From Selenomonas sp. TAMA-11512 (GTDB lineage: Bacteria; Bacillota; Negativicutes; Selenomonadales; Selenomonadaceae): a DNA stretch of 64,000 nucleotides. The position numbers and the translations under genes are program-made. This document shows, one piece after another, positions 14,726 to 62,037 of the stretch. The notes below the pieces were generated by a model. The model searched no databases, was not told the DNA's origin, and was given only the letters and a program-made list of their open reading frames with translations. Every line of letters starts with the position of its first letter. The first letter of the stretch is position 1. The stretch covers positions 2,278,501-2,342,500 of the forward strand of contig NZ_AP029018.1 in the NCBI RefSeq assembly GCF_037076525.1, read 5' to 3'.

Positions 14726-14764
14726 GATACACTCTCCCTTTTCGAAGGATTTTCAGATAGAAAG

Positions 14765-14793: not shown

Positions 14794-14832
14794 ATAGTAT
14801 TATATTATCATATGGATAGGCTTTTGCTTATA

Positions 14833-17779: not shown

Positions 17780-17902
17780 ATGCATCCCCCTTATTCCGGC
17801 GGCAGTTTGCCGCTCCCATCTCTACTCCGGCTTCCCCATCAAAGGATATCGCCTCTATCGACAATGCCCTCCATGTGAAAACGTCACGATCACTGCCAAT
17901 CT

Positions 17903-19713: not shown

Positions 19714-19733
19714 CGTTTTCACCTTTATATCTT

Positions 19734-20594: not shown

Positions 20595-20646
20595 ACGGCT
20601 TTTCTCCTCTCTTCTCAAATCGCTGCGTCTCATAAAAGCAGCAATT

Positions 20647-43530: not shown

Positions 43531-43621
43531 AATGCCCATACTCCATTCATCGGATTTCACATCTTTACAAAAAATCACAATGCAGTAACATTCATATCCA
43601 AGGCGCTGCATTGCTTACTTC

Positions 43622-46145: not shown

Positions 46146-47453
46146 TTACAACTCGTCGATCAGCGTGATGATTTTCTTTATGGACAAGAGTTTGTCATCC
46201 GCTTCCTTTGCCCGATGATGCGTCAGGATGCTCTTTGCCGCCTCTTCCATCGCCGGAAAAGCCGCGCGCAGAAGCTGGTTCGCATAGATGACGATGCGGA
46301 CGCCGTGCCGGGCAAATTCCTCTTCCGTCACCGTGTTGAAGGACGTCGGCACGACGACAATCGGCGTCGTTTCATCCTCTTTTCGGAAAGCGTCGATAAA
46401 GGAGAAGATCTCCGCCGGGTCTTTCTCGCGACTGTGGATCATGATACCGTCCGCGCCTGCCTTGACATAGGCTCTCGCGCGTTCCAATGCGTCTTCTTCA
46501 CCCTTTCCCAAAATAAGGCTCTCGATGCGGGCGATGATCATGAAGTCCTCGGAGAGCTGCGCTCTCTTGCCCGCCGCGATCTTCTCCGCGAAGTGCTCCA
46601 CGGTATCCTGTGTCTGCTCGACCTCGGTCCCGAAGAGCGAGTTCTTCTTGAGGCCCACCTTGTCTTCGATGATGACGGCCGACACGCCCATGCGCTCCAA
46701 AGACCGCACCGTGTAGACGAAGTGCTCGATCAGGCCGCCTGTATCGCCGTCAAAGATGATCGGCTTCGTCGTGACCTCCATGATATCATCGATGGTCCGG
46801 AAGCGGGATGTCATGTCGACGAGCTCGATGTCGGGCTTCCCCTTTTCCGTGCTGTCACAGAGCGAGCTGACCCACATCGCGTCGAACTGGTCGATTGCGC
46901 CGTCCGTCGCGACCATCGTCTTCTCGACGATGAGTCCCGTGAGGCCGCTGTGCGCCTCCATCGTCTTGACGACAGGCACGAGCCCGAGCAGCTTTCTGAG
47001 GCGTCCGCGGCGGTTTTCCGGCATCATGAGCTGCTCACGCATCTGTCGATCGATCTTATGGACGGTCTCATTCCTTGTATACGGTATCTCGATGAGCCGC
47101 CCGCCGTAAGTATTCAGGCTCTCCAAAAGGCGCAGGCGGATGCTCGCCAAGTGTCCCGTCTTCCAGTTGTCGCCATGGATAACGATATCCGGCCGAAGCC
47201 GATCGATGATTCGGTCGTACATGATTTCATCCTGCACGATGACCTCACTGACCTCCGGCACTTCCCGAACCATTGCAACGCGTTCATCCGTCGTCTTCGT
47301 GGGAAAGCGATTATAGCGCACCATCTGCGGATTGGAGAGCACGCCGACGACAAGACGTCCCAGCTTTGCCCCCTCGCGGATGATGTGCATGTGCCCGTCG
47401 TGAATGACATCCGTGCAAAAGCACGTATAGACCAGCTTTTCCTTGTCTTTCAT
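46146..47453 (-). CDS. Cytidylyltransferase-phosphoenolpyruvate mutase fusion
   Basis: About 435 residues in two domains. Residues 1-135 form an HxGH cytidylyltransferase (TDVIHDGHMHIIREGAKLG, DIVIHGDNWKTG). Residues 150-435 form PEP mutase: the phosphate/metal region IIFDGDTGG and the signature VIIEDKVGLKKNSLFG (EDKxGxKxNS), which separates PEP mutase from isocitrate-lyase relatives, plus DFMIIARIESLILG. PEP mutase forms the C-P bond, turning PEP into phosphonopyruvate. Fusion to a cytidylyltransferase suggests that the final phosphonate is activated as a CMP ester for transfer to a glycan. Start uncertain between 47453 and 47471. Confidence 0.93.
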   Translation of the reverse strand: MKDKEKLVYTCFCTDVIHDGHMHIIREGAKLGRLVVGVLSNPQMVRYNRFPTKTTDERVAMVREVPEVSEVIVQDEIMYDRIIDRLRPDIVIHGDNWKTGHLASIRLRLLESLNTYGGRLIEIPYTRNETVHKIDRQMREQLMMPENRRGRLRKLLGLVPVVKTMEAHSGLTGLIVEKTMVATDGAIDQFDAMWVSSLCDSTEKGKPDIELVDMTSRFRTIDDIMEVTTKPIIFDGDTGGLIEHFVYTVRSLERMGVSAVIIEDKVGLKKNSLFGTEVEQTQDTVEHFAEKIAAGKRAQLSEDFMIIARIESLILGKGEEDALERARAYVKAGADGIMIHSREKDPAEIFSFIDAFRKEDETTPIVVVPTSFNTVTEEEFARHGVRIVIYANQLLRAAFPAMEEAAKSILTHHRAKEADDKLLSIKKIITLIDEL

Positions 47454-47494
47454 CGGTTCACTACTTTCCATACAATAAATTTACACTGCATTCT

Positions 47495-49546
47495 CTATTC
47501 CAAATCCACCGGCCACTTCATATCATGATGGTCCAGGATGTCGAACTCTTCCCGGAAGACGGTTTCAAAGCACATCATCTTTTCAAAGTCATCCACAATG
47601 TCGAATCCCGCATTTCTTCGATGCAGATATCGCTTGCCGCCGCGCAAGGAGACCATCCCTTCCTCGTCTACGACCTCAGCGGTCTCCACACGGTATTCAT
47701 ATTCCCTGTCCCGGACAGCACAGCGGAGCGGCTGCCCCGGTATAATCGACAGACTGAATACCTTATCTCGCTCCGTCCCGCCGAATACGGCGGGCAGATT
47801 GCTGTCCGAGACTGCCGGCATCGGGAATCCCGTCAGCTTCGAAAGTATCGCGTATGTATCCACGGAGCTTACGAGTTCTTCCACCTTGCCGATTTGCGGA
47901 ACTCCTGCACCTCGAAACAGCAGTGCGCCGTTCGTCATGTGATCGTTTGCTATCCACGGAACTTCATCGTAGACAGGAACCCCATGATCGGAAAACAATT
48001 CTACAATGTATTCATCTTCCTCGTAATGTGTCTCCAGATAGTCATAAAGCTGTTTCAGGCAGCGATCCGCCTCGCGTATCGCCTCCTCATTCCCCCGTTG
48101 GAAATATCGGCTGTTCGGCAGATGGGGGCTTGCTATCTTGCCTACACAGGCCGTCAGTCGATCCGCGAGGGGACTTTTCGTTTCAGCCGTCAAAGGCTGT
48201 CTCGAAAAATCTCCCGTCCACGGATGTGTGTCAAGCGCCCGAACGGAAATATACTGATCGCATTCCTCCAAAGCCTCCATCTGCAAAATAGCCCTCTCCA
48301 CACCGACGTAGATCGGCGTCACATAGGCGTTGGAAACAAATCGATCGAAGCCCCTGTCCACTCGATTGTAATGAGCAAAGGCAGAGCCCAGGGCACATAC
48401 CGTATAGTAGCCGAGCTTTTGCATCTGCTCCGCGACGGTAATCGTTTCTGGGAGGATCGCAGCGGGTCTCTGCTCATCAATGATCTGGTGATGATGCGTA
48501 TAGAGCCCCGTCTCCATGTTTGTCAGAGACGGGAAGGTATACTCCGCCGCCGTATAGCACTGATTGAAGATGACGCCCTTGGAGAAGAATGCCATCGTAT
48601 TCGGCATCAGCTCGTAGTTCTCTTCCTTCACCTTCGCCCAGCTCATAGCGTCCATCATGATGCGAAGGATGAGTTTTTTGCGATTCGGGCTGTGTTCTAG
48701 GCGGATCGGTTTGCCGACGGCGAACGGTTTGTCTGCGAAAATCCGGGTCGTCTCCTCCATGCGGAAGAAGTTCGTCGCCCACTTGCCGACCGTAGCCGTA
48801 CCTTCTCCCCACGAACCTTGAAAGGAGACCTGCGCTCCTGTTTCCAGCCCCGCGATCGGCAGGAGATACTTACCGCCTTTCTCCGGATGAAACTCCATTT
48901 CATCGACTATCTTCGCATGCATGATATCCAAGGTATAGCCCGCCAAGACGCTACGTAAAAAGCTCTCATTCCAGCGATTATCTTCCAGGAGCTCCGCCTT
49001 GCCGATGTACGGTTCCTGCTCCAGATGCACGCCCACCCAAGGCCGATACTCCGCCTCCGGCTCCCACGGATACGAGGGCAAGTACTCGCCGATCCACAGG
49101 CCCATTTTCTGAGATATGCCCTTGTCGATGACGACTAGTTCCTTTTCGACGGGCGCGTAAACATTGACGCCCGATGCGCGGGATATGAGCGCCGCCGTCT
49201 CCTCATCCATATTCTCCGCCCGAATCTCCACGGGAGTGCCTCCGCGCTTCGCGCACAAGACGGCAAAAAAGATGTACGCGCGTCTGTCTCCGACGGCTTT
49301 ATACGCGTCGCGCAGAAGCCTCCATGCCATGAAGCTCAGACGGCGAATCCGATACGCGTTCCACGCCTCTTTCAATGCCGCCTCATAGTCCTGATGATGC
49401 AGAGCGTAATGCGCGTCAAACAGTGGAGCATTCTCGGAGCGATCATCCAGCTTCCGATAGGCGGCAGCCTTTTCCAAATAGTCCTCGTCGTACTCTTTTC
49501 GTCTTATTTTATCCAACAGGTACTGAAACAACTGCTGCTTCGTCAT
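47495..49546 (-). CDS. Alkaline-phosphatase-superfamily protein, candidate phospho-group transferase 1
   Basis: A 683-residue protein. Residues 1-100 look like helical repeats, 130-290 a beta-rich domain, and 292-660 a sulfatase/alkaline-phosphatase fold. Candidate metal and nucleophile residues: Asp299 in IMMDAMSW, Thr337 in EYTFPSLTNMETG, Asp439 and His441 in LDTHPWTG, Asp520 and His521 in FSDHGVPVY. It has no signal peptide or membrane segment, unlike EptA or LtaS, so it should act in the cytoplasm. One of three paralogues (53487, 56635). Lying next to the phosphonate and phosphocholine genes, it may move a phosphonate or phospho group onto a glycan; this is inference. AGGAGCGG precedes the ATG. 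Confidence 0.75.
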   Translation of the reverse strand: MTKQQLFQYLLDKIRRKEYDEDYLEKAAAYRKLDDRSENAPLFDAHYALHHQDYEAALKEAWNAYRIRRLSFMAWRLLRDAYKAVGDRRAYIFFAVLCAKRGGTPVEIRAENMDEETAALISRASGVNVYAPVEKELVVIDKGISQKMGLWIGEYLPSYPWEPEAEYRPWVGVHLEQEPYIGKAELLEDNRWNESFLRSVLAGYTLDIMHAKIVDEMEFHPEKGGKYLLPIAGLETGAQVSFQGSWGEGTATVGKWATNFFRMEETTRIFADKPFAVGKPIRLEHSPNRKKLILRIMMDAMSWAKVKEENYELMPNTMAFFSKGVIFNQCYTAAEYTFPSLTNMETGLYTHHHQIIDEQRPAAILPETITVAEQMQKLGYYTVCALGSAFAHYNRVDRGFDRFVSNAYVTPIYVGVERAILQMEALEECDQYISVRALDTHPWTGDFSRQPLTAETKSPLADRLTACVGKIASPHLPNSRYFQRGNEEAIREADRCLKQLYDYLETHYEEDEYIVELFSDHGVPVYDEVPWIANDHMTNGALLFRGAGVPQIGKVEELVSSVDTYAILSKLTGFPMPAVSDSNLPAVFGGTERDKVFSLSIIPGQPLRCAVRDREYEYRVETAEVVDEEGMVSLRGGKRYLHRRNAGFDIVDDFEKMMCFETVFREEFDILDHHDMKWPVDLE

Positions 49547-49572
49547 AGCTATCCGCTCCTAATCCTTCCATA

Positions 49573-49860
49573 TCACAGGCCCATGCACCATTGATGAATC
49601 CGTTCCCCGACAGATTCACGCAGTGTCGGACGCACATGCCCGGCATCCTCCTGCACGAACACAATGTCCATAAAGAAATCCAAGTCATGTGGCGTACCTT
49701 CCTTGTAGAACAGAGATGCGCCCTCCGCATAGAGAGATGCCTCCGCTCCCTCGATGCACTGCACCATGACGGGCTTGCCTGTCGCCCGATAGAGCGCCAT
49801 CACCAAGCTGTACTCCCCGCAATACGCCGCTATTTACACTATCGTCACATCGGCGGACTA
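49573..49860 (-). pseudogene. Remnant of a CDP-glycerol glycerophosphotransferase-like gene
   Basis: Minus-strand frame with AAYCGEYSLVMALYRATGKP, which lines up with DVYYGDFSSMIWLYQATGKP in the full-length protein at 41050, and a tail ending in RESVGERIHQWCMGL. A TAA sits in frame near 49832 and only about 90 codons remain. The upstream part is missing where the MITE-like element begins. Probably the C-terminal relic of a second TagF-like gene. Confidence 0.65.
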
Positions 49861-49866
49861 CCTTTA

Positions 49867-50136
49867 GGGCAGCACTGATAAATTCAGCCTCCCATCTTCA
49901 CGCATCTGCACTGTCCTCTCGTCGCCCTCGAATCCTCGATCAGCACCGCTACACCTCCGGTTTACCATGAAACCCCAAGAGGTCAAACCGAAGGCGCAGA
50001 CCGATTGGTTAGGTTTCTGTAAGGGCGGGGCGCACAATGTCTGCAAAGCGGACGTTTGTGCGTGTAGCTTGTCTCCCAGATAGATACAGCGCATCTGTGC
50101 AAATCCGGGTGACTTCATTTTATCAGCGATTCCTTG
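49867..50136. mobile_element. MITE-like element with short inverted ends
   Basis: About 270 bases bounded by GGGCAGCACTGATAAATTCAG on the left and, read inward from the right, GGAATCGCTGATAAAATGAAG. They share CTGATAAA and flanking positions. It carries no transposase. A minus-strand frame across most of it (84 codons) looks like passenger sequence. The right end recurs at 13652. It abuts a gene remnant, as expected for an insertion or deletion endpoint. Confidence 0.5.
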
Positions 50137-50142
50137 GATGAA

Positions 50143-50184
50143 AAAAATAGGCCGACAAACACAAAGTACTGTGCGTCGGTCTAT
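50143..50184 (-). terminator. Terminator of the lic operon
   Basis: Minus strand stem CCGACGCACA / TTGTGTTTGTCGG (one bulge) followed by CCTATTTTTTTC, nine bases beyond the stop of the YbjN-like gene. Confidence 0.7.
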
Positions 50185-50194
50185 TCTCTCCCCG

Positions 50195-50734
50195 TTATTT
50201 CTTCTCCCAGACCTTGGCCATGAACGCCTTGAATGTCGCTGACAAATGCTGCGTCAAGACGCTGAGCATGAGCTGCACCATCTTCGGATCGAACGTTTCA
50301 TCCACGTAAGGCATGCAGAGGTCGATGTAAATCACGCCGTCCTCGCGGAGATAGTACTTGAACATCTTGTAATCCGTGTTCATCGCGTTGAGATATTCCG
50401 CCATCTCCCCCTTGCGCTCCATGTCAAAACCGTGAAAGAGCTCCAGGCGAATGATCGTAAAGACGCTTTGATCTATGATGACCGCCATCGGGAGGAGCTG
50501 CCCCGCAGCCTCGATGTTCGAGCGGAAGAGCACCGTATTCGACGCGTCTTCAATCACCTCGGGCGTAAATGCCGTGATCTCCTGCTCCTCAAGAAACGCC
50601 TGAAACGCCTTTGCCTTTGCGCTTTTCTCTATGGCATTTCCGACGCTCTCCACAGCTTCTTCCATCGTCTTTTCTGCTCCGTTCTCTTCCATCATAAGCA
50701 CCCTTTCCAGCGCCTCAAGCGCATCTATTTCCAT
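50195..50734 (-). CDS. YbjN-like small protein
   Basis: A 179-residue acidic protein. A long helical region comes first (about 1-60), then a beta-rich YbjN-like part with FRSNIEAAGQLLPMAVIIDQ, a strand pair MFKYYLREDGVIYIDLCMP and a helix after DPKMVQLMLSVL. YbjN-type folds resemble secretion chaperones; the role is unknown. It closes the lic operon and is followed by a terminator. ATG at 50734 chosen although the ribosome binding site is weak. Confidence 0.5.
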   Translation of the reverse strand: MEIDALEALERVLMMEENGAEKTMEEAVESVGNAIEKSAKAKAFQAFLEEQEITAFTPEVIEDASNTVLFRSNIEAAGQLLPMAVIIDQSVFTIIRLELFHGFDMERKGEMAEYLNAMNTDYKMFKYYLREDGVIYIDLCMPYVDETFDPKMVQLMLSVLTQHLSATFKAFMAKVWEKK

Positions 50735-50797
50735 TCGATACAAGTTTTTACGTCATACGGATTTATATTCTACACACACATGCCGTTTTCCTACCGA

Positions 50798-51754
50798 TCA
50801 TCCCGGCTGTTTTCCGCGCAGACTCTTCGGCTCCAACACCACGAGCACGATTCCGATAAACAGGATACTCGCGCCCGCCCACTCCGTCCACGACAGCATC
50901 ACGTCTTCCGAGAGCAGCAGCGCAAACAGCGTCCCCCACAGGATATAGCTCGTATTGAGCGCCATTCCCCGGGCAACCCCCAGATAGTGATTGGCTCTGT
51001 ACCAAAACGTATAAGAGAGACCGGCAAATGCTCCGCCTATGAAGAAGTACAGCATCGTAGAGGTATCCCCCGCATACACGCTTTCAATGGATACGCTCGG
51101 GGCGACAGCGAATACGGCGCACCAAAGTGCGATCGCCGATATTCCCTCGCGCCAGAGTACGGCAATCGTCGCATCGATCCCGCGCATCGTATAGCTTGCC
51201 AGCACCATTTCCGAGCCCCAGCAAAACGCGGCTCCCAGCGCCAAGAGCACGCCGCGGGATACCTCGATAACGTCCTTAAGCGACATGCCTCCGTATAGAA
51301 TCCAAATGCCTGCCACAGACAAGATGCAGCCGATCCACATGGGAATCGTCAATCGCTGCTTCAAGAAGAGCAGCGCCAGCAGCACGCTGACCACGGGGTA
51401 CAGCGCCGTGAACACGAGCGCCTTCTGCGCGCCGATCAGCGCGATCGCGGAAAAATAGCAATAGCTTCCCGTAAAGCCGCCCAGGAGCCCGGTGGCTATG
51501 ATCCCGGGCAGGTACGCGGCCGCAAAGAGCGGCGTCACCTGCCCTAAAAGTCGGCAGGTAACGACATAGATCGCGACGACGGCAAACGCCATCAAGTCAT
51601 TGTACGCGGCGCCGACCAAGGCAGGCAGTATGCCGCCCTCCGCCCCTGCGTCAAAACCGGCTAAAAAGCGCTGATATGCCTCAGCAAAGACTACGTTGTT
51701 CAGTGCCCATAGGATGCCGCTGCCTATGCCGAAGAAAATGCCGAGCAGCCTCAT
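50798..51754 (-). CDS. licB: EamA/DMT-family transporter, LicB-like
   Basis: A 318-residue membrane protein with ten predicted helices in two EamA halves (FGIGSGILWALNNVVFAEA; later LLALGAAFCWGSEMVL). In lic1 loci LicB is a DMT-family choline permease, and here the gene sits directly after LicA- and LicC-like genes with an ATGA overlap, so choline or ethanolamine uptake is the likely role. The substrate is not proven by sequence. Confidence 0.82.
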   Translation of the reverse strand: MRLLGIFFGIGSGILWALNNVVFAEAYQRFLAGFDAGAEGGILPALVGAAYNDLMAFAVVAIYVVTCRLLGQVTPLFAAAYLPGIIATGLLGGFTGSYCYFSAIALIGAQKALVFTALYPVVSVLLALLFLKQRLTIPMWIGCILSVAGIWILYGGMSLKDVIEVSRGVLLALGAAFCWGSEMVLASYTMRGIDATIAVLWREGISAIALWCAVFAVAPSVSIESVYAGDTSTMLYFFIGGAFAGLSYTFWYRANHYLGVARGMALNTSYILWGTLFALLLSEDVMLSWTEWAGASILFIGIVLVVLEPKSLRGKQPG

Positions 51755-52482
51755 CGCTTGTTTCCCCCGTTGCGCAGGAGCTCCGCGTACGCCGGATCCA
51801 TCGCGCAGAGCTCCTCGGTCGTATCGATCTCACACAGACTGTCCGCGGAAATCTTGCGCACGGACAGGTGAAATTCGTCTCGGTGCAGAAACAGTGCGAC
51901 ATCATCCCAGTACAGCTCCCGATGCGCATGCGCATCGCGTTCTACATGCGCCGCCAGGCGAGCGGCATCTTCTTCGGACCAGAGTGAGACGCTGTAGAGC
52001 CGCCATCCGCCCCTGCCGCCGGTTCTCGAGCAGGCTCGTATGCGATCGCCCTCCAGCTCGAGCAGCCACTCCTTCGTATCTCCCTCCGCATAGCTTGCCA
52101 GGTAGCAGGAGGATACAAAGCGCGGATCGAGTATGGAAGCATCGTATATCCACTGATCCGCATCGAGGATCATGGTGCTCCCCGACCTCAGGATGTCCCT
52201 CGCGGCATACAAGGAGAGAATGTTGTTCCCCTTTTCATAGTCCGGATTGTACAGCAGCCGAATTGTCCCGTACTTATCCTGCAGATAGGAGAAGCTCTCC
52301 CGCCGATAACCTGTGACGACGGTTATATCCGCTATGCCCTGCGCGAGCAGCGACTCGATCAGTCGTTCCGCGATCGGCACACCGCGCACGGGGAGCAGCG
52401 GCTTCGGCGTGCTGTCCGTAAAAGGCGCCAGTCGATTTCCATACCCGGCCGCCAGTATAATTGCCCGCTCTATTCTATACAT
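51751..52482 (-). CDS. licC: CTP:phosphocholine cytidylyltransferase-like (LicC)
   Basis: A 243-residue nucleotidyltransferase: RAIILAAGYGNRLAPFTD with KPLLPVRGVPIAERLI, NNILSLYAARDIL and MILDADQWIYD (metal aspartates), ending in CEIDTTEEL. This is the LicC pattern. It makes CDP-choline or CDP-ethanolamine from the LicA product, for transfer by a LicD protein. It overlaps both neighbours and so belongs to a tight operon. It is a second copy in the island, beside the one at 17045. Confidence 0.88.
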   Translation of the reverse strand: MYRIERAIILAAGYGNRLAPFTDSTPKPLLPVRGVPIAERLIESLLAQGIADITVVTGYRRESFSYLQDKYGTIRLLYNPDYEKGNNILSLYAARDILRSGSTMILDADQWIYDASILDPRFVSSCYLASYAEGDTKEWLLELEGDRIRACSRTGGRGGWRLYSVSLWSEEDAARLAAHVERDAHAHRELYWDDVALFLHRDEFHLSVRKISADSLCEIDTTEELCAMDPAYAELLRNGGNKR

Positions 52483-53362
52483 GGCTTTCCTCTACATATG
52501 CCCGTACTTTTTCGCTGTACTTCCGGGCATACGCGTACTGTTTTTTCTCATACTCCCGAAACATTACGCCCATGCTGTGCTTATAGGTGCACCACACACC
52601 CCATAAATAGCCCGCGGCCGCCATCATCGCATATATCTTATGCAGGAATGCTTCCTCCACGTCGTTTTCCGACTGCCGCATGTACAGTGCTATGAGCTGT
52701 TTCACCTCACGCTCTTTATAGCCCGAATATATGGCAAACATGGCGAGGTCCCAGTCCGGATCCGCCATCGCCGCATATTCCCAGTCGATGAGTGTGACGT
52801 GATTCTCCGCGTCAAGCAGAAAGTTGTCAGGTATGGCGTCGATATGCGTCAATACGAAAGGCTTTTCCTGCGCCTTCAAAAAATCCCGCAGATCGCAAAT
52901 GCTCGCCGACAGCGTACGGTCATACGACATGTCCGTCTTGCGGACAAGCTGTTCATACCGATATATTTCATCGAAGACATCATACTTGTGCGGTACGGAC
53001 AGCCCCGCCTCGTGGAGCCTCCGGAGCTCCCCCAGCGCCAGTCCTACATCCTTCCAGTCGGCAGGATTGACATTGCGGATATCGGGCATATATTTCGTCA
53101 GCTTATAGCCCTCCCGCGCGGAGATTTTCAGCAGCGTCTCCCCGAAGCCGTGCGCGCCGATGACCGCATACGTCACCTCTTCCGCGCTTCGATTGACGAG
53201 CTCTTCCGTGCCGATGCCGTTGAGGCGCAGTACGTAGTCTCCCCCATTTGTCTCCACGCGGAACGAGTCATTCGTCAGCCCTTTCTTCATCGGTGTGACG
53301 GCAAGCACCTTCTCTGACGGTAAAATCCTGTTCATGAGAACCGTGCACATATCTTCCGGCAT
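52475..53362 (-). CDS. licA: Choline/ethanolamine kinase-like (LicA)
   Basis: A 295-residue kinase of the aminoglycoside-phosphotransferase fold. FRVETNGGDYVLRLNG is the ATP-binding hairpin with its Lys replaced by Arg in VLRLNG, FVLTHIDAIPDNFLL is the catalytic H-x-D-x4-N loop, and VTLIDWEYAAMADPDWDLA is the metal-binding DxE/DFG-like segment. This matches choline kinases of the lic1 type. It phosphorylates imported choline or ethanolamine in the cytoplasm. First gene of the licA-licC-licB-YbjN operon; GGGGGA precedes the ATG. Confidence 0.88.
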   Translation of the reverse strand: MPEDMCTVLMNRILPSEKVLAVTPMKKGLTNDSFRVETNGGDYVLRLNGIGTEELVNRSAEEVTYAVIGAHGFGETLLKISAREGYKLTKYMPDIRNVNPADWKDVGLALGELRRLHEAGLSVPHKYDVFDEIYRYEQLVRKTDMSYDRTLSASICDLRDFLKAQEKPFVLTHIDAIPDNFLLDAENHVTLIDWEYAAMADPDWDLAMFAIYSGYKEREVKQLIALYMRQSENDVEEAFLHKIYAMMAAAGYLWGVWCTYKHSMGVMFREYEKKQYAYARKYSEKVRAYVEESHV

Positions 53363-53486
53363 CTCTGTCCCCCTGCGTATCCGTTACAATTGTATTTCTC
53401 CTCTATGTACCGCGTGATACGCATTCAAGCAGCTTGTATGCCGCACCCTCCCCGGAAAACGTCCCGCATCCGTATGCGGCAGTCTC

Positions 53487-55517
53487 CTAGTCCGTATCAT
53501 GCGCAAACGTCTTCGTATGCTCCAATGCCAGTCCGAGGAAGTAATCCAGCACGGCCGGATCAAAGCATTCTTCGCCCGTGGCACGGTCGTATGCGTGCTC
53601 TGTGAAATCCGACATGTTGAGCGTGCCGTCCGGTCTCGTAAAATCCGCGGTCTCCAAGCGATACTCATAATCCTTCGTGCGGATGCCGAGCTTATACGTC
53701 TGTCCCGGGAATATGGAATTGGAGACGACATATTCCCTCTCTTTTCCCCCGAAGGCGGCAGGCAGATTTGCATCCGCATCTCCAATCGGCGCATCAAGAC
53801 CCTTCGAGATGACGGCATACATATCCATCAGCGACACGAGCTCATCTGTATGACCGATGTTCGGAATGCCGGCGCCGCGCATCATCATGGCAACCTTTGC
53901 CTGTCCGTCATCAAAGAACCAGTCTGTCTTGCGGTGGACGCTCATTCCATGGTCACTGTACGCATGGACGATGTACTCATCCTCTTCATAGTGTTCTTCG
54001 ATATAGTCAAACAATATGCCGAGATGGCGGTCGAGCTGCTCGATTTCCAGGAGATTATCGCGCACATACAGCGGTATTTTCGGCATGGATACGATGACCG
54101 CATCGCCCGCATACAGATTCTCCTCCCATGAGAGGTTTGTCTCCGCCGCCGGCGTCATCGGCATGGCAATGTTCGCCTTGGAATGCGCATCTTCGATATG
54201 CGCAAAGATGTATTGATCCGTCTCCGAAAAGGCTTCGATCTGTTCAATCGTTCGTGCCACGGCCATGCACGCACTCTGGCTGTCCAGACTTGTTCCGATG
54301 ATGCGCTCCATGCCGCGCAGCGTCCCCGTCCCCACGCCGTCCAGATTGCACATCGTCGTCACCGTATAGTAGCCTGCATCGCGCGCCTTAACCGACAGAG
54401 GCTCCGACTCATCGGCGTAAACCGGCCGATGCTCGATTACAACCTGCGACCGATGCGGATACAGTCCCGTCTCGACGGTCGGAAATGACGGATACGTGTA
54501 CTCGGCGACGCAATAGGCCTCATCAAAGATGATTCCCTTGCTGAAAAATCGCTTGACATGCGGCACATGACGATAGTTCGTCTCCTGCATGATCTTCCAC
54601 GACACTCCGTCAAGCATAAGATTGAGGATCAATTTCTTTCGCTTCGGGCTGTGCCGCAGGGGAACGGATCTTCCCACGGCCATGGGTGACGCGCAGCGGA
54701 GCCTCAGAGACTCCTTGGCATCCACACGGATGTATTTCCACTCCATACGGCCGAGGATGAGGTCACCGGATGTCGTGCCGTCCGTTATCTCCACGTTGAT
54801 CGCCTGCGCACCCTTCGTATCCGCCACAGCGATGGGAACAATCATATCCTTGTCCGCGCGCAGTTCTATTTCCTTCGCTTCCGCCACGTGACGGCAGAGA
54901 TCAAAGTACACGCCTCGATAGTCGGAGATTGCGTGCCTCTCTGTCTGCAGCAGCTCTTTCGCCGTCTGTCCGTATGTTCGGTAGCGATTGTACACCCCCG
55001 CCCAATACGGAGCGTCGGTTTTCTCGAGTGTGCGCAGCGACTCCCCCACAAGCGCTCGGAAGGAGAACGCATCTCCGTTCGGCTGCAGCACAACGGGCAG
55101 CTCATCACCATGCGAGCAGCCCAATATGTACATGGGCATTCCCGCCTCTGTCACAATCTGCGACGACGGTTTCCATCGGGACGAAAATCCGGTGAGAAGC
55201 CCTGCCCAAAACGATGCGTTCACATCGTCTCCAAGCGCTCTGTAAAGGCGCTCAAAGAGTCTCCAGATGCGGTCCGATACCTTGCGCCCCTTATACGCCT
55301 CTTTCAAAAGAGCCAAGGCATCCGTCATGTTGTTCTGTTTGAAGGAATGGTATGCCAAAAAATGATACAGCGCCGCCGTATCGTCCGTCACCTCCGCAAA
55401 GCGTGCAAGGAGCGTATCCGCCTCATCCTCACACGCGCCGTCTGTCCAGGCATTGAGTCGACGATAGAGGATTTCCGCCTCGATCACCCGATCACTTCGA
55501 ACGATGCCCTTTCGCAT
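53487..55517 (-). CDS. Alkaline-phosphatase-superfamily protein, candidate phospho-group transferase 2
   Basis: About 676 residues, same layout as the protein at 47495: a helical N-terminal region (AALYHFLAYHSFKQNNMTDAL), a beta-rich middle, then the phosphatase fold. The conserved positions are LMLDGVSWK, EYTYPSFPTVETGLYPH (Thr nucleophile candidate), IFAHIEDAHSKAN and AYSDHGMSVH. No membrane segment or signal peptide. Substrate unknown; the neighbouring lic operon suggests a CDP-activated or lipid-free phospho group. GAAGGGAA precedes the ATG at 55517. Confidence 0.75.
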   Translation of the reverse strand: MRKGIVRSDRVIEAEILYRRLNAWTDGACEDEADTLLARFAEVTDDTAALYHFLAYHSFKQNNMTDALALLKEAYKGRKVSDRIWRLFERLYRALGDDVNASFWAGLLTGFSSRWKPSSQIVTEAGMPMYILGCSHGDELPVVLQPNGDAFSFRALVGESLRTLEKTDAPYWAGVYNRYRTYGQTAKELLQTERHAISDYRGVYFDLCRHVAEAKEIELRADKDMIVPIAVADTKGAQAINVEITDGTTSGDLILGRMEWKYIRVDAKESLRLRCASPMAVGRSVPLRHSPKRKKLILNLMLDGVSWKIMQETNYRHVPHVKRFFSKGIIFDEAYCVAEYTYPSFPTVETGLYPHRSQVVIEHRPVYADESEPLSVKARDAGYYTVTTMCNLDGVGTGTLRGMERIIGTSLDSQSACMAVARTIEQIEAFSETDQYIFAHIEDAHSKANIAMPMTPAAETNLSWEENLYAGDAVIVSMPKIPLYVRDNLLEIEQLDRHLGILFDYIEEHYEEDEYIVHAYSDHGMSVHRKTDWFFDDGQAKVAMMMRGAGIPNIGHTDELVSLMDMYAVISKGLDAPIGDADANLPAAFGGKEREYVVSNSIFPGQTYKLGIRTKDYEYRLETADFTRPDGTLNMSDFTEHAYDRATGEECFDPAVLDYFLGLALEHTKTFAHDTD

Positions 55518-55546
55518 CCGTATCGTTCCCTTCATTCACAGATAGT

Positions 55547-56542
55547 TCACTTCTTCAGTGCGGCAAGCACGGCAAAGTCCGCCACGGGAAGCTTGACCGC
55601 AAATTCCAGCGCTTTTTCCGTGTCTCCCATCGCATCCACGGTAAATGCCATATTGCGGATGGATGTGCCGTCCTGATCGTCGATGCGCAGCGCCGTTGTC
55701 AGGAGGTATTTCGCCGCCGCATAGTCATCCCTGGCATAGAAACCGGCTGCAAAGGAATTCAAGAGGCGCATCTTCTCCGTGACGGATACATGCTGCTTGA
55801 GAATCTCATCGCTGATTTCTTCCGGTGACTTTTCCGCATGCGCTTCGGCGGGTACACTCTTTTCAGCCTTCTTAACTTCAACCTTCTGTTCATCGACGGC
55901 TTTGCTCTCCGGCTTCTTCTCCGGCGCACTCTCCTCTTTTTGCGCGGAATTTCGGATTCTTGCCTTGAGCGCCTCCAGCGCCGTCAGCGCGTTCGACAGC
56001 GGCGCCTCATCCTTTGTCTTCGGCGCTGCCGCCGTCTCTTTGTCCTGCAGCGAGTCATCGTCCTGTCGGAGCGCAAGGAGTGCAGGGTACGCATCCATGG
56101 AGATGTCCTCATCGTCCGCGGCATCCTCCATGAAGTCCCGGACAAACTCCATATCCTCTTCATCCAAGGATGTACGGGACTTATCCACCAGGAGATTCAA
56201 GATTGCCAGGCCGTCCGCCGTGCGGTGCTTAAACCAGCAGATGCGCGCCAGGAGCACCTTTGCCTTGACGTGTCCGGGCTCCTTTCCCAGCGTCTGATTG
56301 ACCCACTGGGATGCACGGTCATAGTCCTCTTCCATGTAATAGCAGTACGCCGCCCTGTAGTAGACGTCCGCATCGCCCCCATCCGCTTTGAGTATGCGGA
56401 CAACGGCATCCAGCCCTTCGATGTATCGGCCTTCCTCCATCAGCTCGGCGAGTACGGCGCGCTCGCCCCTGCCCTGCTTCTTTATATCTTTTTCTTCCTT
56501 CTTTTTCAGGTTTTTTTCCTTCCTACGGCTTGCCTTCCCCAT
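55547..56542 (-). CDS. TPR-like repeat protein
   Basis: A 331-residue protein. It opens with a very basic coiled stretch (MGKASRRKEKNLKKKEEKD), followed by tetratricopeptide-like helices (YYRAAYCYYMEEDYDRASQWV, VKAKVLLARICWFKHRTADGLAIL), a long charged linker rich in E, K and A (about 185-270) and a last pair of repeats (FAAGFYARDDYAAAKYLL). Probably a scaffold for the surrounding transferases. No enzymatic motif. AAGGAGCGG precedes the ATG at 56542. Confidence 0.7.
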   Translation of the reverse strand: MGKASRRKEKNLKKKEEKDIKKQGRGERAVLAELMEEGRYIEGLDAVVRILKADGGDADVYYRAAYCYYMEEDYDRASQWVNQTLGKEPGHVKAKVLLARICWFKHRTADGLAILNLLVDKSRTSLDEEDMEFVRDFMEDAADDEDISMDAYPALLALRQDDDSLQDKETAAAPKTKDEAPLSNALTALEALKARIRNSAQKEESAPEKKPESKAVDEQKVEVKKAEKSVPAEAHAEKSPEEISDEILKQHVSVTEKMRLLNSFAAGFYARDDYAAAKYLLTTALRIDDQDGTSIRNMAFTVDAMGDTEKALEFAVKLPVADFAVLAALKK

Positions 56543-56634
56543 CGATACCCGCTCCTTACATATCGTCGCCAAACAAACACAATAACATATCTATATCGTG
56601 TTAAAGAAGATATATATTAAGGCATATCCTCGCC

Positions 56635-59600
56635 TTACCCTTCATGATGGAAGCTCCTTACATGCTCCCACGCGATGCTCCAAAAGTATGCGGAAAGAGC
56701 AGGATCCTCCACGCGCTCCCGCGTCCCCTTCCGATAGATGATCTCGGAGGCATCGCGCATATCGACAGTGCCGTCTAAGCGCGTCGGCGTCTCCGTCTCA
56801 AATCGGCACTCATATTCTCTCGTGCGGATATCGAGCTTGTACGTCTGTCCCGGAAAGATGGAGTTCGAAATGACGTATTCCCTCTCCGCTCCGCCGAGCG
56901 CGGCGGGAAGATTTGCATCCGTTCCCCGCCAGTCCGCATCGAGGCTCCTCGACACGACGGCGTGCATATCGAGAAGCGATACGAGCTCATTCGTCGAGCC
57001 GAGCGCGGGGATCCCCGCGCCCCGCATCAGCATGGCGACGCTTGCCTGTCCCTCGGAAAAGTACCAGCCATCGTCTCCTCCATAAATGCGGAGCCCGTGA
57101 TCGCTGTATGCGTGGATGACGTACTCCTCTTCATCGTAATTCTCCTGCACGAAATCATAGAGCTCACCCAGCGCGCGGTCCATGCGGCGAATCCCGACCG
57201 CATTGTCCTTTAAATACGCCGGATCGCCGACCGTATTCACGGAGGCGAGATTGTCCCGACCGTCCAAGACCCCCTGCTCGTACCATGGCAGTCCTGTCTG
57301 CACCGACAGGCGCAGCGGAAATTGGTAACGCGGCATGATGTGCGGATCGGTCACGTGCAAAAACATGTATACGTCCGTCTCTCGCAATGCCTCCAGCTGC
57401 TCCATGGCGCGCTCCACGGCGATATACGCCGGCTGTGTCAGACGAGGGCTGCAGATCATGCGGTCAAATCCGCGGTGCGATCCGTTGTAAAGGCCGTATC
57501 CGTCGCTCATGGGCGCCGTCGTATAGTATCCCTGCGCCTTCGCTTTCTCCGGAAGCGTTTGATACTCTTTCGCGAGCCGCACGGGGAATCCGTTGTCAAA
57601 GATCTGGCTTCGATGCATGTGAAGCCCCGTCTCCACCATCGGCTCCGACGGATATGTGTGCTCGGCGACGGTATAGGCGTTGTCAAAGCGTATGCCCTTT
57701 TCAAAGAATGCATGCGTCCTCGGCATGTATTCGCCTGCCGCGCGCTCACTTGTCCATGCAAGACCGTCCATGAGAACGTTCAGGATGAGACGGCGCTTTG
57801 TCCGGTGCTTCAGATATATAGGCGCACCTACGAGAAAGGGCTGTTCGCTTCTGATCCGCGTGGGACGCTCCATCCGCAGGAAGTGCCATTCCGACATCCC
57901 GCAGTTGATCTGCGCCTCCTTTTCCCCATCGCTTACGCGCAGCGAGCGCACGACATCCCCCGCAATCGGCACGATGACGGGTACATTATCGGGCGGCACG
58001 ATCTCCGTATCCGTCGTCTCCTGCTGCACGCGGATGACATCAAAGTCGATGTTGTCATAGCCGCCCGGCTGGCTTCTCGCCTCCTGCAGCGCGTGGATGC
58101 GCATGGCAATCGTATGATAGTACAGCTCGTCGTTGTAAAGGCCTGCCCAGTAGGCGCCGGGGCCGTGCTCTCCCAAGAGATACTCGCCCAGCGGGACATG
58201 CAGCTCGAAATCGAGGCTGCCGTCGGCTTTTTCCGACAGGGGCAGATAATACCATGGCGCGGCGTTCACCGAGGAGAATGCTCTTGCCCATATCTCCTGC
58301 TCCTCTTCCTCACCGATCCTGACGGGACCGTCCAACTCTCTCCTGCGTGCCAGCAGATATTGAAAGAAGAGCGCTTCCTTCCGGCGGCCGAGCTTCGCAT
58401 AGAGCACAACCAGGAGCTTCCAGATGCGCGACGAAAGCTGGCGGCGTACGTACGCCTCCTGCGCCTCCCGGAGTGCGAGCTCGTGCTCACCCAGCCGATG
58501 AGCGAGGACGGCCGTAAAGTAATGGGTCGCGGCCTCATCCGTACCCAAGCTCGCGTATCTCTCGATAAGCTCCGGGACATCCGCGAGTTCGCCGCCCCCT
58601 TCCGCCCAGTCCGAGAGTCTTTCATAGAGCTCCTCCGCCTCCCGTATGACCTGATCGATGTTTATCGCTTGTTCCGATTTTAATGTCATGTCTGTCCCCT
58701 TCGAGCCGTCTATGTATAAAGAGCCTTCATTTCGCTCATGCGCCTGCCCCTCTCGGAAAACATCTTTCCCCTGTCTTCGTAAAGTTGCCTCACCCTCGTC
58801 GTCCAGCCAGCGGGCGAACACCTCCCGATACGCCTGCTCCACGTCGCGCATATAGAGCTTTGCGTCCATGATATGAAACGCTTCCATCGTCTGCCGCAAA
58901 TGCTGCCGCAGACTCTTGAGGCGCGCCGTGTCCCGCGCGAGACGTGCGGCGATCTCGATGTACTCCGCAGCACTCGACGCGACCAGCTCGGGCAATCGGA
59001 CGTTCTCCAGGAGGCTCTTGCCGAAGCGGCTGCCATGACGGTCCCCCGCAAGCGTCACGACGGGCACGCCCATGTAGAGCGCGTCGCACGTCGTCCCGCC
59101 GCCCGGATACGGAAATGTATCAAGCGCTATATCGATTGCGTTGTACGCCTTGAGATAGTCCTCCGTGCGCCCCTCGAACATCACGCGGCCGATGTCTATG
59201 CCCGCCGATCGCAGCCGTTCACGGACGCAAGCGCATCCGTCTTCGCTGTCGAAGATATCCGCCTTCAAAAAGAGATGTGCGTCCGGCACTTCATTGAGTA
59301 TCGCCGCCCATGTGTGGAGCACTTCATCGGTGACCTTGGAAAACGCGTTGAGCGAGCCGAATGTGACATATCCGTTCCGCGATGCCGGCAGCGTACCGAC
59401 GCCGCACGCTTTCGCGGGCGCGTAGCAGAGGTGACTGTGCGGCAGTCTCAGGATTTGCTCGACGAAGTAAGCCTCCTCCCCCTCGGGGTCAAGGTGCACA
59501 TCGCCGAGAACATAGTCCACGGCGGCGAGCCCCGTCGTATTGAACCAACCGATGCCCGTAATCTGAACAGGCACGGGCTTCCGTGCAAGTATCGGGAGCG

Positions 59601-60252
59601 CGCCGCCCGCCGTGTGCCCCGAGAGGTCGACAAGGATATCGATCTCATCCGCGTATATAATGCGGGCGGCCTCCTTCGGCGAGAGATCGGTCAGGACACG
59701 AAACGCGTCCGCATGCGCCGCGAACGTCTCCATCACGGGATTCGCCTCGCAGAGCGCGTAGCCGTACACCTCGAACGACGCTCTGTCGTATGATTCGAAG
59801 AAGGGATGCATAAAGCTCGCCACGATGTGCTTTCGAAAATCGGGCGATATGTACCCCACTCGAATCTTCTCGTGAGCTCGATGGCGATCCCTGTCGTGCG
59901 CATGGCACGGCACGCACCGAAAGAGTCGGCCGTAAGCGTGGATCGCCTTTGCGAGCGCCCGGCTGTCCGTCTCGTGATAGTGACGGGAGAAGAGATACGC
60001 GCCGTACATCCTCGCCTTATCGTCGCCCGTCGCGGCGCGGTACGCGAGATAGTCCTCTTCCGTCGCCTGCTCCGCCTCTCCGAGACTCCGATACATCGTG
60101 CCGCGCGCGTTGCGGATGAACGCTCTGTCCGCGCCGAACAGGGAGGCATCCTCGAGCGCTCGAGCGCTCTTTTCCAGCGCCGCTCGATACTGTCCGGCAT
60201 CCGCCTCTTCTCTCGCGGCTAAAAAGAGCTGCCACCCGCCCAACGCGTCCAT
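56635..60252 (-). CDS. Fusion of GT41 (OGT/SPINDLY-like) glycosyltransferase and alkaline-phosphatase-superfamily domain
   Basis: A 1205-residue fusion. Residues 1-110 are short helical repeats. Residues 135-490 form a GT41 glycosyltransferase: RVGYISPDFRKHIVASFMHPF, DILVDLSGHTAGGALPILA, VPVQITGIGWFNTTGLAAVDY and DTFPYPGGGTTCDALYMGVP, the conserved donor-binding set of O-GlcNAc transferase and SPINDLY. Residues 540-1200 are a paralogue of the proteins at 47495 and 53487, with LMDGLAWTS, EHTYPSEPMVETGLHMH, VTDPHIMPRY and AYSDHGLRIY. The fusion ties protein or flagellin O-glycosylation to phospho-group transfer on one chain. AAAGGAGAT precedes the ATG. Confidence 0.88.
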   Translation of the reverse strand: MDALGGWQLFLAAREEADAGQYRAALEKSARALEDASLFGADRAFIRNARGTMYRSLGEAEQATEEDYLAYRAATGDDKARMYGAYLFSRHYHETDSRALAKAIHAYGRLFRCVPCHAHDRDRHRAHEKIRVGYISPDFRKHIVASFMHPFFESYDRASFEVYGYALCEANPVMETFAAHADAFRVLTDLSPKEAARIIYADEIDILVDLSGHTAGGALPILARKPVPVQITGIGWFNTTGLAAVDYVLGDVHLDPEGEEAYFVEQILRLPHSHLCYAPAKACGVGTLPASRNGYVTFGSLNAFSKVTDEVLHTWAAILNEVPDAHLFLKADIFDSEDGCACVRERLRSAGIDIGRVMFEGRTEDYLKAYNAIDIALDTFPYPGGGTTCDALYMGVPVVTLAGDRHGSRFGKSLLENVRLPELVASSAAEYIEIAARLARDTARLKSLRQHLRQTMEAFHIMDAKLYMRDVEQAYREVFARWLDDEGEATLRRQGKDVFREGQAHERNEGSLYIDGSKGTDMTLKSEQAINIDQVIREAEELYERLSDWAEGGGELADVPELIERYASLGTDEAATHYFTAVLAHRLGEHELALREAQEAYVRRQLSSRIWKLLVVLYAKLGRRKEALFFQYLLARRRELDGPVRIGEEEEQEIWARAFSSVNAAPWYYLPLSEKADGSLDFELHVPLGEYLLGEHGPGAYWAGLYNDELYYHTIAMRIHALQEARSQPGGYDNIDFDVIRVQQETTDTEIVPPDNVPVIVPIAGDVVRSLRVSDGEKEAQINCGMSEWHFLRMERPTRIRSEQPFLVGAPIYLKHRTKRRLILNVLMDGLAWTSERAAGEYMPRTHAFFEKGIRFDNAYTVAEHTYPSEPMVETGLHMHRSQIFDNGFPVRLAKEYQTLPEKAKAQGYYTTAPMSDGYGLYNGSHRGFDRMICSPRLTQPAYIAVERAMEQLEALRETDVYMFLHVTDPHIMPRYQFPLRLSVQTGLPWYEQGVLDGRDNLASVNTVGDPAYLKDNAVGIRRMDRALGELYDFVQENYDEEEYVIHAYSDHGLRIYGGDDGWYFSEGQASVAMLMRGAGIPALGSTNELVSLLDMHAVVSRSLDADWRGTDANLPAALGGAEREYVISNSIFPGQTYKLDIRTREYECRFETETPTRLDGTVDMRDASEIIYRKGTRERVEDPALSAYFWSIAWEHVRSFHHEG

Positions 60253-60327: not shown

Positions 60328-62037
60328 TTAATCCTCCTCACACCTTAGAACAAGGCGATAGGCAGCCTCCAGGTCACGCATATAGGCTTTGCCGTCGAGC
60401 AGAGGCGTCTTCATCATCATCTGCCGGAGGTTTTTGTGCAGAATCGTGAGCAGCTCCTCGTCGCTCGCGAGGGCCACCGTCTTCTCCACATAGTCCGCGT
60501 CATCCGCCGCTATGAGCTCCGACAGTCCGAGGTTCATCATGATGCTGCGGCCGAACCGCTCGCCGTGCTTGTCACCCGCATAGACGACAAGAGGCACGCC
60601 CATGTAAAGGGCATCGAACGTCGTCCCTCCGCCCGGATAGGGCGACGTATCCAGAGCGACGTCGACCTCTCCATAGGCGCTGTACACGCCGTCCGTAAAG
60701 CCCTGATAGTCAAGCCGCGCCGGGTCGAAGCCGACGGCTGTGAGCCGCTCCTGCGCCTCAAGACATCCCTCCGGGGTATCAAAGCGCTTTCCCTTCAGGA
60801 AGAGGTGCGATCCCGGCATGCGGTCGAGAATTTGCTTCCATACGGTAAGCATTTCGTCCGTGACCTTTGCCCAGTTGTTGAAGCAGCCGAACGTGATGTA
60901 TCCCTTTCTCCGTACGGGAGGGAGGAAGTACTCCGGCACCTTTGCCGCGTCCTCCCACGGCGTATAGCAGAGATGACTGCCCGACAAGATGAGCATCTTC
61001 TCCGTGAAGTCGGTATCCTTCCCGATCCCCGAGGGCTGCCCGCTAACGTATGTATCGCTCAGGAAGTAGTCCACGGCATCCAGCCCCGTGCTGTCAAAGT
61101 AGCCGATGCCCGATATCTGCACGGGCGCCGGCCTGTAGGCGAGCACGCCGAGCGCGTTCCCCGTCGAATGACCCGCGAGGTCCACGAGGATATCGAGATC
61201 ATCCTCGCGGATGATGCGTGCCATCTCCGCATCGCTCCTGCCGGCAAGCGCTCGCCAGCGCGTGACTTGCGCCTCGATTAGTCTGGATGTCTCATCCTCC
61301 GTCTTGACCATATAGGCGTAGACCTCGAACGATGCGCGGTCATAATCGCGAAAGAGCACCTCCGCAAAGCGCATGACGATGTGGCTTCGAAGATCCGGAG
61401 AGATGTACCCGACGCGAATCTTATCCCGCCTCCTCTTTCCGCGCCTGTGCGTATACGGGACTACATCCGCGTACAGCTTCGAGTACTTGCTTGCCGGAGG
61501 GAGCTCCGGATGATCCTGCCAGCGAAAATAGTGGCGGCCGAAAAGATAGTTGGAAAATAGCGTCCTCTTATATACGACATTGTCCGTCGACGCATACGCA
61601 AAGAGCGCGTATGCCGTCCCCTGCTCGTGATCGCCCAGGCTGCGCCACGCCTTTGCCATATAGTGGAAAATCTGCGGCTTGTCCCCATCTTGAAAATGGG
61701 GCGACGCGATATACGCCTCGCCCTCTTCGATGAGTCTCTGGTATTGACCCGCAATGAGGAGATATCCCATGAGGAGCTCCGTATGGCGTCGGCTCTCGGG
61801 GAACTCCCGCTTCCAGATGTCGAGCCACAGCGAACCCATTTCAACGTCCTCGTAGTGGTTCGCGTAGAGCAGCACCGCCTCAAAGAACGACTCGCGTGCC
61901 TCCGGTATTGCCTCCAGCTTCTTGATGGCCTCCTGCGCGCCGCGGCGATCCCATGCCGTCATGCGCTCGGCGAAGATCCTCTCCCACTTCTCCTGCTCTT
62001 TTAATCTGCCTTTTGGGGACTTTTTCACAAACGTCAT
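60328..62037 (-). CDS. GT41 (OGT/SPINDLY-like) glycosyltransferase
   Basis: A 569-residue protein. The first 190 residues are tetratricopeptide-like helices. Residues 205-565 form the GT41 domain: IRVGYISPDLRSHIVMRFAEV, DILVDLAGHSTGNALGVLA, VQISGIGYFDSTGLDAVDYF, HLFLKGKRFDTPEGC and DTSPYPGGGTTFDALYMGVP. It is a paralogue of the GT41 half of the preceding fusion. Bacterial members of the family glycosylate flagellin or adhesins in the cytoplasm. GAGGAG precedes the ATG. Confidence 0.9.
   Translation of the reverse strand: MTFVKKSPKGRLKEQEKWERIFAERMTAWDRRGAQEAIKKLEAIPEARESFFEAVLLYANHYEDVEMGSLWLDIWKREFPESRRHTELLMGYLLIAGQYQRLIEEGEAYIASPHFQDGDKPQIFHYMAKAWRSLGDHEQGTAYALFAYASTDNVVYKRTLFSNYLFGRHYFRWQDHPELPPASKYSKLYADVVPYTHRRGKRRRDKIRVGYISPDLRSHIVMRFAEVLFRDYDRASFEVYAYMVKTEDETSRLIEAQVTRWRALAGRSDAEMARIIREDDLDILVDLAGHSTGNALGVLAYRPAPVQISGIGYFDSTGLDAVDYFLSDTYVSGQPSGIGKDTDFTEKMLILSGSHLCYTPWEDAAKVPEYFLPPVRRKGYITFGCFNNWAKVTDEMLTVWKQILDRMPGSHLFLKGKRFDTPEGCLEAQERLTAVGFDPARLDYQGFTDGVYSAYGEVDVALDTSPYPGGGTTFDALYMGVPLVVYAGDKHGERFGRSIMMNLGLSELIAADDADYVEKTVALASDEELLTILHKNLRQMMMKTPLLDGKAYMRDLEAAYRLVLRCEED

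Follow-up and report, generated by a model that had tools for sequence, protein, structure and literature searches.

The closest described counterparts of the genes reported here belong to the Lic pathway, in which LicD (PF04991), the usual phosphocholine transferase, takes the last step after LicA and LicC, and to the phosphonyl tailoring (Pnt) pathway with its enzyme PntC. The part of the Pnt paper used here describes the formation of cytidine monophosphate-2-aminoethylphosphonate (CMP-AEP) and gives LicD-like phosphotransferases or glycosyltransferases as the associated machinery; its main text does not contain the word “sulfatase” (Rice et al. 2019, PMC6697681). The type A flagellin glycan of Clostridioides difficile, whose N-acetylglucosamine bears 2-AEP, is likely a product of the kind considered below; the enzyme that adds 2-AEP is not named in the portion of the report consulted (PMC8861647). 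Here, we describe three paralogous proteins, SulfC, SulfB and GT41-SulfA, encoded in a 64,000-nucleotide stretch of the genome of Selenomonas sp. TAMA-11512 (contig NZ_AP029018.1, positions 2,278,501 to 2,342,500; hereafter “the window”), which combine a known fold with a new architecture and gene company and are predicted to have a new activity. We consider it likely that their family consists of soluble cytosolic transferases that move aminoalkyl-phosphonate or phosphocholine from CMP or cytidine diphosphate (CDP) donors to flagellin glycans or other cytosolic acceptors.

The family shares with LicD its predicted job and its gene company but has a different domain: the window’s three proteins lack PF04991, and the homologues occur across genomes independently of LicD. 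As in the Pnt pathway, phosphoenolpyruvate (PEP) mutase, phosphonopyruvate decarboxylase (Ppd), AEP transaminase and LicC-type cytidylyltransferase genes lie beside the homologues. The fold is also that of the phospho-transferases EptA, OpgB/E and LtaS, with PbgA/YejM as a structural relative; these are membrane-anchored and use lipid donors, whereas our family is soluble, linked to tetratricopeptide repeats (TPR) and tied to genes for CMP/CDP donors. Phosphonate monoester hydrolases and choline sulfatase are likewise similar in fold (Z 23-25), but the family lacks the formylglycine motif and carries added TPR and beta domains. Among the papers listed in searches of the open-access literature, we found no soluble sulfatase-fold proteins assigned such a function, which is weak evidence of absence, as subscription journals and preprints lay outside the search.

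Architecture and active site

The three proteins and the domains of SulfC are as follows.

SulfC: 47495..49546, minus strand, 683 aa; PF00884 E 1.4e-21, above the curated cut-off
SulfB: 53487..55535, minus strand, 682 aa; PF00884 E 4.6e-15, above the curated cut-off; SulfC-like architecture by alignment A1
GT41-SulfA: 56635..60252, minus strand, 1205 aa; PF13844 E 9.9e-44 (N-terminal part) and PF00884 E 1.2e-18, above the curated cut-off
SulfC residues about 1-103: TPR-like region (family profile against designed TPR proteins, E 7e-21)
SulfC residues about 104-289: beta-rich domain (AlphaFold2 model)
SulfC residues about 288-678: alkaline-phosphatase/sulfatase-fold domain (PF00884, AlphaFold2 model, fold matches Z 23-26)

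A sequence-only reading of this DNA had described three open reading frames (ORFs) with a helical N-region, a beta-rich middle and a phosphatase/sulfatase fold, free of membrane helices and in one case fused to a glycosyltransferase resembling O-GlcNAc transferase. The coordinates, the Pfam matches and the AlphaFold2 model of SulfC (built on 67 sequences; mean pLDDT, the predicted local distance difference test, 94.8; predicted template modelling score, pTM, 0.94) bear this architecture out, the helical region being TPR-like. The fusion is equally clear: residues 1 to ~500 of GT41-SulfA are a GT41 glycosyltransferase (PF13844, 149.9 bits against a cut-off of 25), and the TPR-beta-phosphatase-fold unit begins at ~531. 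Among the homologue loci read, this fusion ORF occurs only in this genome. SulfB and SulfA are each 33% identical to SulfC in alignment A1 (30, 31 and 41% for the three pairs in another alignment), and the three are the sole family matches in their 2.59 Mb genome.

By hydropathy, all three proteins are soluble and without a membrane segment, in line with the earlier description. Their highest 19-residue Kyte-Doolittle means are 0.99-1.16, versus 2.54 for the adjoining LicB-like permease, and none of them has N-terminal membrane helices of the EptA/LtaS type. A threshold of 1.6 on this mean was just exceeded by two of 112 family members (1.63 and 1.64) and by none of eight homologues from a second bacterial family, f115, in which no membrane segment was found.

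Structure matches to SulfC 288-678 included an S1_25 sulfatase (6hr5, Z 26.4, 2.7 A over 331 residues), PbgA (6xlp, Z 25.7, 3.2 A over 322), choline sulfatase (6g5z, Z 25.0, 2.8 A over 344) and a phosphonate monoester hydrolase (4upk, Z 24.1, 3.5 A over 353); YejM (6vc7) matched the phosphatase-fold domain with Z 25.4. Matches differing by a Z of less than 1 were counted as tied. In score, PbgA/YejM, choline sulfatase and phosphonate monoester hydrolase come close to the sulfatases. The main rival explanation is that these are cytosolic phosphodiesterases or phosphonate monoester hydrolases that strip phospho or phosphono groups off glycans or break down excess CMP-phosphonate and CDP-choline. 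The shared fold speaks for this, as does the fact that most soluble members of the superfamily are hydrolases, and the phosphodiesterase profile PF01663 also matches (33.5, 35.2 and 24.7 bits against a cut-off of 23), over partial stretches and below the PF00884 scores. For reasons of gene setting given below, we judge it unlikely. The beta-rich domain had no confident match: modelled alone (SulfC 104-289, pLDDT 92.8), it had no Foldseek match below 1e-3 and a best Z of 5.1, and its sequence profile search gave nothing better than E 0.79, a failure to match that is no proof of a new fold.

Conservation was assessed on 106 aligned family members, namely 112 proteins, SulfA, SulfB and SulfC included, minus six identical ones. 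Homologues shorter than 560 aa were dropped from this alignment, from the tree and from the motif scan, while the eight f115 proteins were taken without a length cut. In SulfC numbering, D299, E335, T337, H441, D494, D520 and H521 are invariant and D439 is conserved in 93%; all eight of these residues are kept in 8/8 f115 proteins. The conserved D, T, DxH and DH positions of the sequence-only reading are recognizable here as D299, T337, D439-x-H441 and D520-H521. D299, T337, D520 and H521 would correspond to the Thr nucleophile and to the acidic and Asp-His metal ligands of nucleotide pyrophosphatases/phosphodiesterases (NPPs) and of the EptA/LtaS transferases. D439-x-H441 could serve as an NPP-like second metal site, which in NPPs consists of Asp, His and His; no third ligand was identified.

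T337 aligns with the formylglycine-precursor position of S1 sulfatases (profile alignment to 7lha). The PF00884 match and the fold would also suit ordinary formylglycine sulfatases acting on sulfated glycans, but the activation motif C/S-x-P/A-x-R....T/SG was found in 0 of 120 family members, and the position four residues beyond the Thr holds Leu, Phe or another residue, in no case Arg. The Thr itself is invariant (106/106 aligned members and 8/8 f115 proteins), as judged from the alignments; the pattern used for the 120-protein scan had Thr written into it. The pattern G[KR]W[HN], written for the S1 sulfatase motif G-K-W-H, occurred in only one of the 120. We thus rejected formylglycine-sulfatase identity on the absence of the motif and regard it as extremely improbable. 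As to a class apart from known hydrolase families, the fold places the proteins in the sulfatase/alkaline-phosphatase superfamily, and sulfatases make up the majority of fold matches among the 50 listed, but the S1 sulfatase motif is missing and several non-sulfatases and other hydrolases match about equally well. SulfA, SulfB and SulfC have no match to PF04991, so they are not LicD proteins, though they may work like LicD.

From the fold, we infer a Thr-linked intermediate in a reaction that would be transfer rather than hydrolysis. A metal-bound Asp/Thr/Asp-His site would activate Thr337, which would attack the phosphorus of the donor with departure of CMP, and the Thr-linked group would be passed to a sugar hydroxyl, with the TPR and beta domains holding the acceptor. 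The phosphonate donor would be made by the neighbouring PEP mutase, phosphonopyruvate decarboxylase, AEP transaminase and LicC-type cytidylyltransferase, and the choline donor by LicB, LicA and LicC.

Gene company in two bacterial families

Homologues were found in 41 of 189 genomes of the window’s own family, f1 (its own genome included), and in 13 of 30 genera (alignment A1, E 1e-15). A class-wide search with alignment A2 matched 42 of 380 genomes, all within f1, the extra one being a fragment. With thresholds of E 1e-35 for LicC-like (alignment A3) and LicA-like (A4) proteins, E 1e-8 for LicD, and TIGR02320 for PEP mutase, the 189 genomes include 42 with PEP mutase, 62 with LicC-like, 22 with LicA-like and 81 with LicD genes. 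PEP mutase was present in 30 of the 41 homologue genomes versus 12 of the 148 others (Fisher p 2e-16), LicC in 39 versus 23 (p 8e-22) and LicA in 19 versus 3 (p 4e-12); LicD was not associated with the homologue (19/41 versus 62/148, p 0.72). LicC, PEP mutase or LicA occurred in 40 of the 41 genomes, and in 35 of them, representing 11 of the 13 genera, at most 4.3 kb from the homologue, with a median gap of 1.0 kb.

These patterns bear on whether the family hydrolyzes or transfers. Of the 30 genomes that carry homologue and PEP mutase together, 18 lack LicD, five of these 18 being single-contig assemblies (G025, G033, G035, G037 and G142); LicD is likewise absent from 10 of the 19 with homologue and LicA. 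Of the 22 LicA-bearing genomes, 19 have the homologue, and two of the remaining three have LicD. Homologues further sit in biosynthetic clusters, with up to seven copies in one locus; if they were hydrolases only, the pathways of the LicD-less genomes would be left without a last step. The simplest reading is that the family performs the step that LicD performs elsewhere.

Beyond f1, a search of 398 genomes sampled evenly across the phylum gave four matches, one of them outside f1 (G596, of family f115). A search of f115 then found homologues in 8 of 250 genomes, 21-26% identical to the window’s proteins. In six of the eight loci, a LicC-type gene lies 33 to 2442 bases away. Gene calls in these and other relatives’ loci came from codon-trained ORF calls and tblastn.

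L107: homologue adjoining LicA-LicC-BCCT, with NeuB close by; the contig also carries flagellin and further filament genes (L117)
L119: homologue, AEP transaminase-like, PEP mutase, LicC, Ppd
L120: FlgK-like, FlgK-like, FlgL-like, LicC+LicA, LicC, BCCT, homologue, FliW, FlaG, FliD, FliS, FlgN, FliC, FliC, MptE-like, all on one strand
L121: homologue; on the opposite strand Ppd, iron alcohol dehydrogenase, LicC+PEP mutase
L122: LicC-like (25%) and class V aminotransferase, then the homologue
L123: homologue, LicC+aminotransferase
L124 and L125: no LicC

The clearest case for the proposed transfer would be L120, where a choline transporter, kinase and cytidylyltransferase stand with the homologue among filament genes; a search of the 20 kb read, though not of the rest of that genome, revealed no LicD-like gene. 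A hydrolase alone would leave this pathway, too, without its last step. More generally, the window’s LicD and TagF-like protein had no match in the f115 stretches read, the remainder of those genomes not having been searched. Within L120 (5051-11104, genome G810), there are two LicC copies, one fused to LicA and an N-terminal winged helix, with BCCT amid same-strand flagellar filament genes, apparently a phosphocholine pathway dedicated to flagella. A 375-aa gene of L121, considered as an aminotransferase, proved by Pfam to be the iron alcohol dehydrogenase; in this locus (10995-15305, genome G951), the dehydrogenase suggests 2-hydroxyethylphosphonate rather than AEP as the product, and the short-chain dehydrogenase (SDR) of the window may act likewise.

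Within f1, other homologues lie near LicA/LicC genes (L005, L069, L070, L077, L085 and L064) or near a LicC-aminotransferase fusion (L078 and L079). In the homologue arrays of genus g6, of which 12 loci were read, some of them truncated where the stretch or contig ends, the full order is LicC, cytidylyltransferase-PEP mutase, methyltransferase (11/12), AEP transaminase, three to seven tandem homologues and Ppd. The AEP transaminases of L042 and L082 score over the TIGR03301 cut-off, and the methyltransferase suggests N-methyl-AEP as the headgroup.

Gene setting in the window and the proposed acceptor

The window’s neighbouring genes, all on the minus strand, are listed below.

41050..43611: TagF/CDP-glycerol-glycerophosphotransferase-like protein, 853 aa, a rival transferase candidate (PF04464 E 3.4e-6, over cut-off)
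43810..44571: SDR adjoining Ppd (PF00106)
44568..45683: phosphonopyruvate decarboxylase, Ppd (TIGR03297 E 5e-136, over cut-off)
45685..46128: stand-alone cytidylyltransferase (TIGR00125, over cut-off)
46146..47471: cytidylyltransferase-like domain fused to PEP mutase, which makes the C-P bond (TIGR02320 E 1.6e-121, over cut-off; PF01467)
50798..51754: LicB-like EamA permease (PF00892 E 5e-25; maximal 19-residue hydropathy mean 2.54)
51751..52482: LicC-like nucleotidyl(cytidylyl)transferase (PF00483/PF12804; alignment A3)
52475..53362: LicA-like choline/ethanolamine kinase (PF01633 E 1.3e-19)
55547..56572: TPR protein between SulfB and GT41-SulfA (PF14559); relatives recur near GT41 and Sulf genes
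60328..62037: second GT41 glycosyltransferase (PF13844 E 1.6e-34)
62047..63615: GT2 glycosyltransferase with TPR matches, SunS-like (PF00535 E 1.7e-26, TPR_14; SunS 77.7 bits, below the cut-off of 350)
19734..20705: LicD-family protein (PF04991 E 2.4e-37), the sole PF04991 match of the genome, 27 kb from SulfC

SulfB lies directly upstream of the genes for the choline kinase, the LicC-like protein and the EamA permease, and SulfC is followed by the cytidylyltransferase-PEP mutase fusion, the second cytidylyltransferase, Ppd, the SDR and the TagF-like gene. From these positions, our guess is that SulfB handles phosphocholine and SulfC a phosphonate; the SDR adjoining Ppd could reduce phosphonoacetaldehyde. 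The flanking phosphonate and lic-type genes of the sequence-only reading are real by their Pfam and TIGRFAM matches, and its suggestion of soluble transferases or hydrolases that decorate glycans with phosphonate or phosphocholine draws support from this linkage, with the reaction a prediction. Its condition that homologues not commonly occur without phosphonate or lic genes agrees with the survey above (40/41 genomes overall, 35/41 within 4.3 kb and six of eight f115 loci within 2.5 kb).

The GT41 and GT2-TPR genes stand upstream of GT41-SulfA, and the 20 kb read beyond the window (L061) carries a GT2-type gene, an AAA/DUF4143 gene and genes for flagellin, FliS, FliD, FliW, an FlgL-like protein and FlgK (Pfam). 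On the same strand, 7.3 kb separate the end of fliC from the start of GT41-SulfA, which lies downstream. Together, the glycosyltransferase genes and the nearby fliC make the cluster read as a probable flagellin-glycan island, and the fliC position, along with the run of filament genes around the L120 homologue, lends weight to the earlier mention of protein-linked glycans. The acceptor would most likely be an O-glycan that the GT41 and GT2-TPR enzymes assemble on flagellin while it is still in the cytosol, and the solubility of the enzyme fits both such an acceptor, flagellin glycosylated before export, and cytosolic CMP/CDP donors.

The window’s own gene content also bears on another explanation, in which the transfer is carried out by LicD, by the TagF-like protein or by some unrecognised enzyme, and the family has a different task on the same glycan, for example adding glycerol-phosphate or phosphoethanolamine or trimming sugar phosphates. 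This genome has LicD, and its PF04464 protein adjoins the phosphonate genes; among the 18 genomes that combine homologue and PEP mutase but lack LicD, 11 have a PF04464 match, some homologues lie away from any headgroup gene, and five PEP-mutase genomes have neither homologue nor LicD. We nonetheless find this explanation improbable: seven of those 18 genomes lack PF04464 too (G024, G025, G026, G035, G036, G142 and G171), and these three proteins and the eight f115 homologues have no membrane segment for reaching lipid donors.

Several observations weigh against transfer of phosphonate or phosphocholine by the family. The LicD and TagF-like proteins of this genome could each move one of the two groups. 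Linked genes are absent within 10 kb of the homologue in six of the 41 f1 genomes (G001, G003, G031, G124, G174 and G175); G175, whose homologue sits at a contig end (L090), is alone in having no LicC, PEP mutase or LicA anywhere at the thresholds used. A LicC-type gene is missing from two of the eight f115 loci, and L122 has a weak match to LicC. The genes labelled in the g6 array loci read include none for flagellin, and extra g6 paralogues stand among housekeeping genes (FTHFS, a ValRS-type tRNA synthetase and UbiD). Among the 12 genomes with PEP mutase and no homologue, seven have LicD and five have neither, so other transferases must exist or drafts miss genes. The co-occurrence p-values ignore shared ancestry, which is controlled for only through the number of genera and the second family. 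Finally, known transferases of this fold (EptA and LtaS) use lipid donors, and the nucleotide-cleaving relatives (NPPs) are hydrolases.

Taken with the evidence for transfer, we lean slightly towards seeing here an unrecognised cytosolic family of alkaline-phosphatase-fold headgroup transferases that use nucleotide (CMP/CDP) rather than lipid donors, supply the missing last step of phosphonyl tailoring, replace LicD in phosphocholine addition and act on flagellin glycans before export, with paralogues differing in acceptor or headgroup specificity. In two bacterial families, and in many genomes that lack LicD, homologues accompany the CMP-activation genes and offer concrete candidates for the step that comes next. 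If the proposal is true, soluble transferases with nucleotide donors would join the known members of the sulfatase/alkaline-phosphatase superfamily. The proposal would also fill the step after CMP-AEP that was left open in 2019, as far as the part of that paper used here goes (Rice et al., PMC6697681), and could explain how phosphonate reaches flagellin, as seen in C. difficile in the part of the report consulted (PMC8861647).

Paralogue history and minor observations

A FastTree tree of 112 rows, from which the duplicate loci L006, L087 and L089 (equal to L060, L008 and L007) had been removed beforehand, was labelled by gene context. The label changes nine times (minimum three), far below the shuffle mean of 29.7, a value as low being reached in 0/200 shuffles, and context is thus inherited to a degree. 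A division of phosphonate- and choline-linked homologues into two clades, from which the donor could be read, was not supported, as choline-linked rows stand in at least three places. The window’s proteins lie on long branches, so their placing is unsure. The g6 tandem arrays (L042, L046, L048, L059, L081 and similar) contain deep branches common to several species.

The LicC-aminotransferase fusions of L078, L079 and L123 were considered as PntC-like but more likely serve another amino-alcohol group: the best NCBIfam matches of the L078 fusion are CobD/HisC-like and the L123 fusion matches Pfam PF00155, whereas for the AEP transaminase (AEPT) domain of PntC the search model used in solving the structure was an alanine-glyoxylate aminotransferase, according to the part of the Pnt paper used here (PMC6697681). 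The same two kinds of protein occur as separate genes in the window, where a second LicC-like cytidylyltransferase (17045-17785) and a class I/II aminotransferase (18661-19836) lie close to LicD (19734-20705); this cluster may be a pathway for another CDP-amino-alcohol headgroup.

In the TagF-like protein, the PF04464-like stretch covers residues 269-449, and the long remainder has no match above cut-off. In L067, L088 and L080, GT41, the TPR protein and the homologue are separate genes that lie close together.

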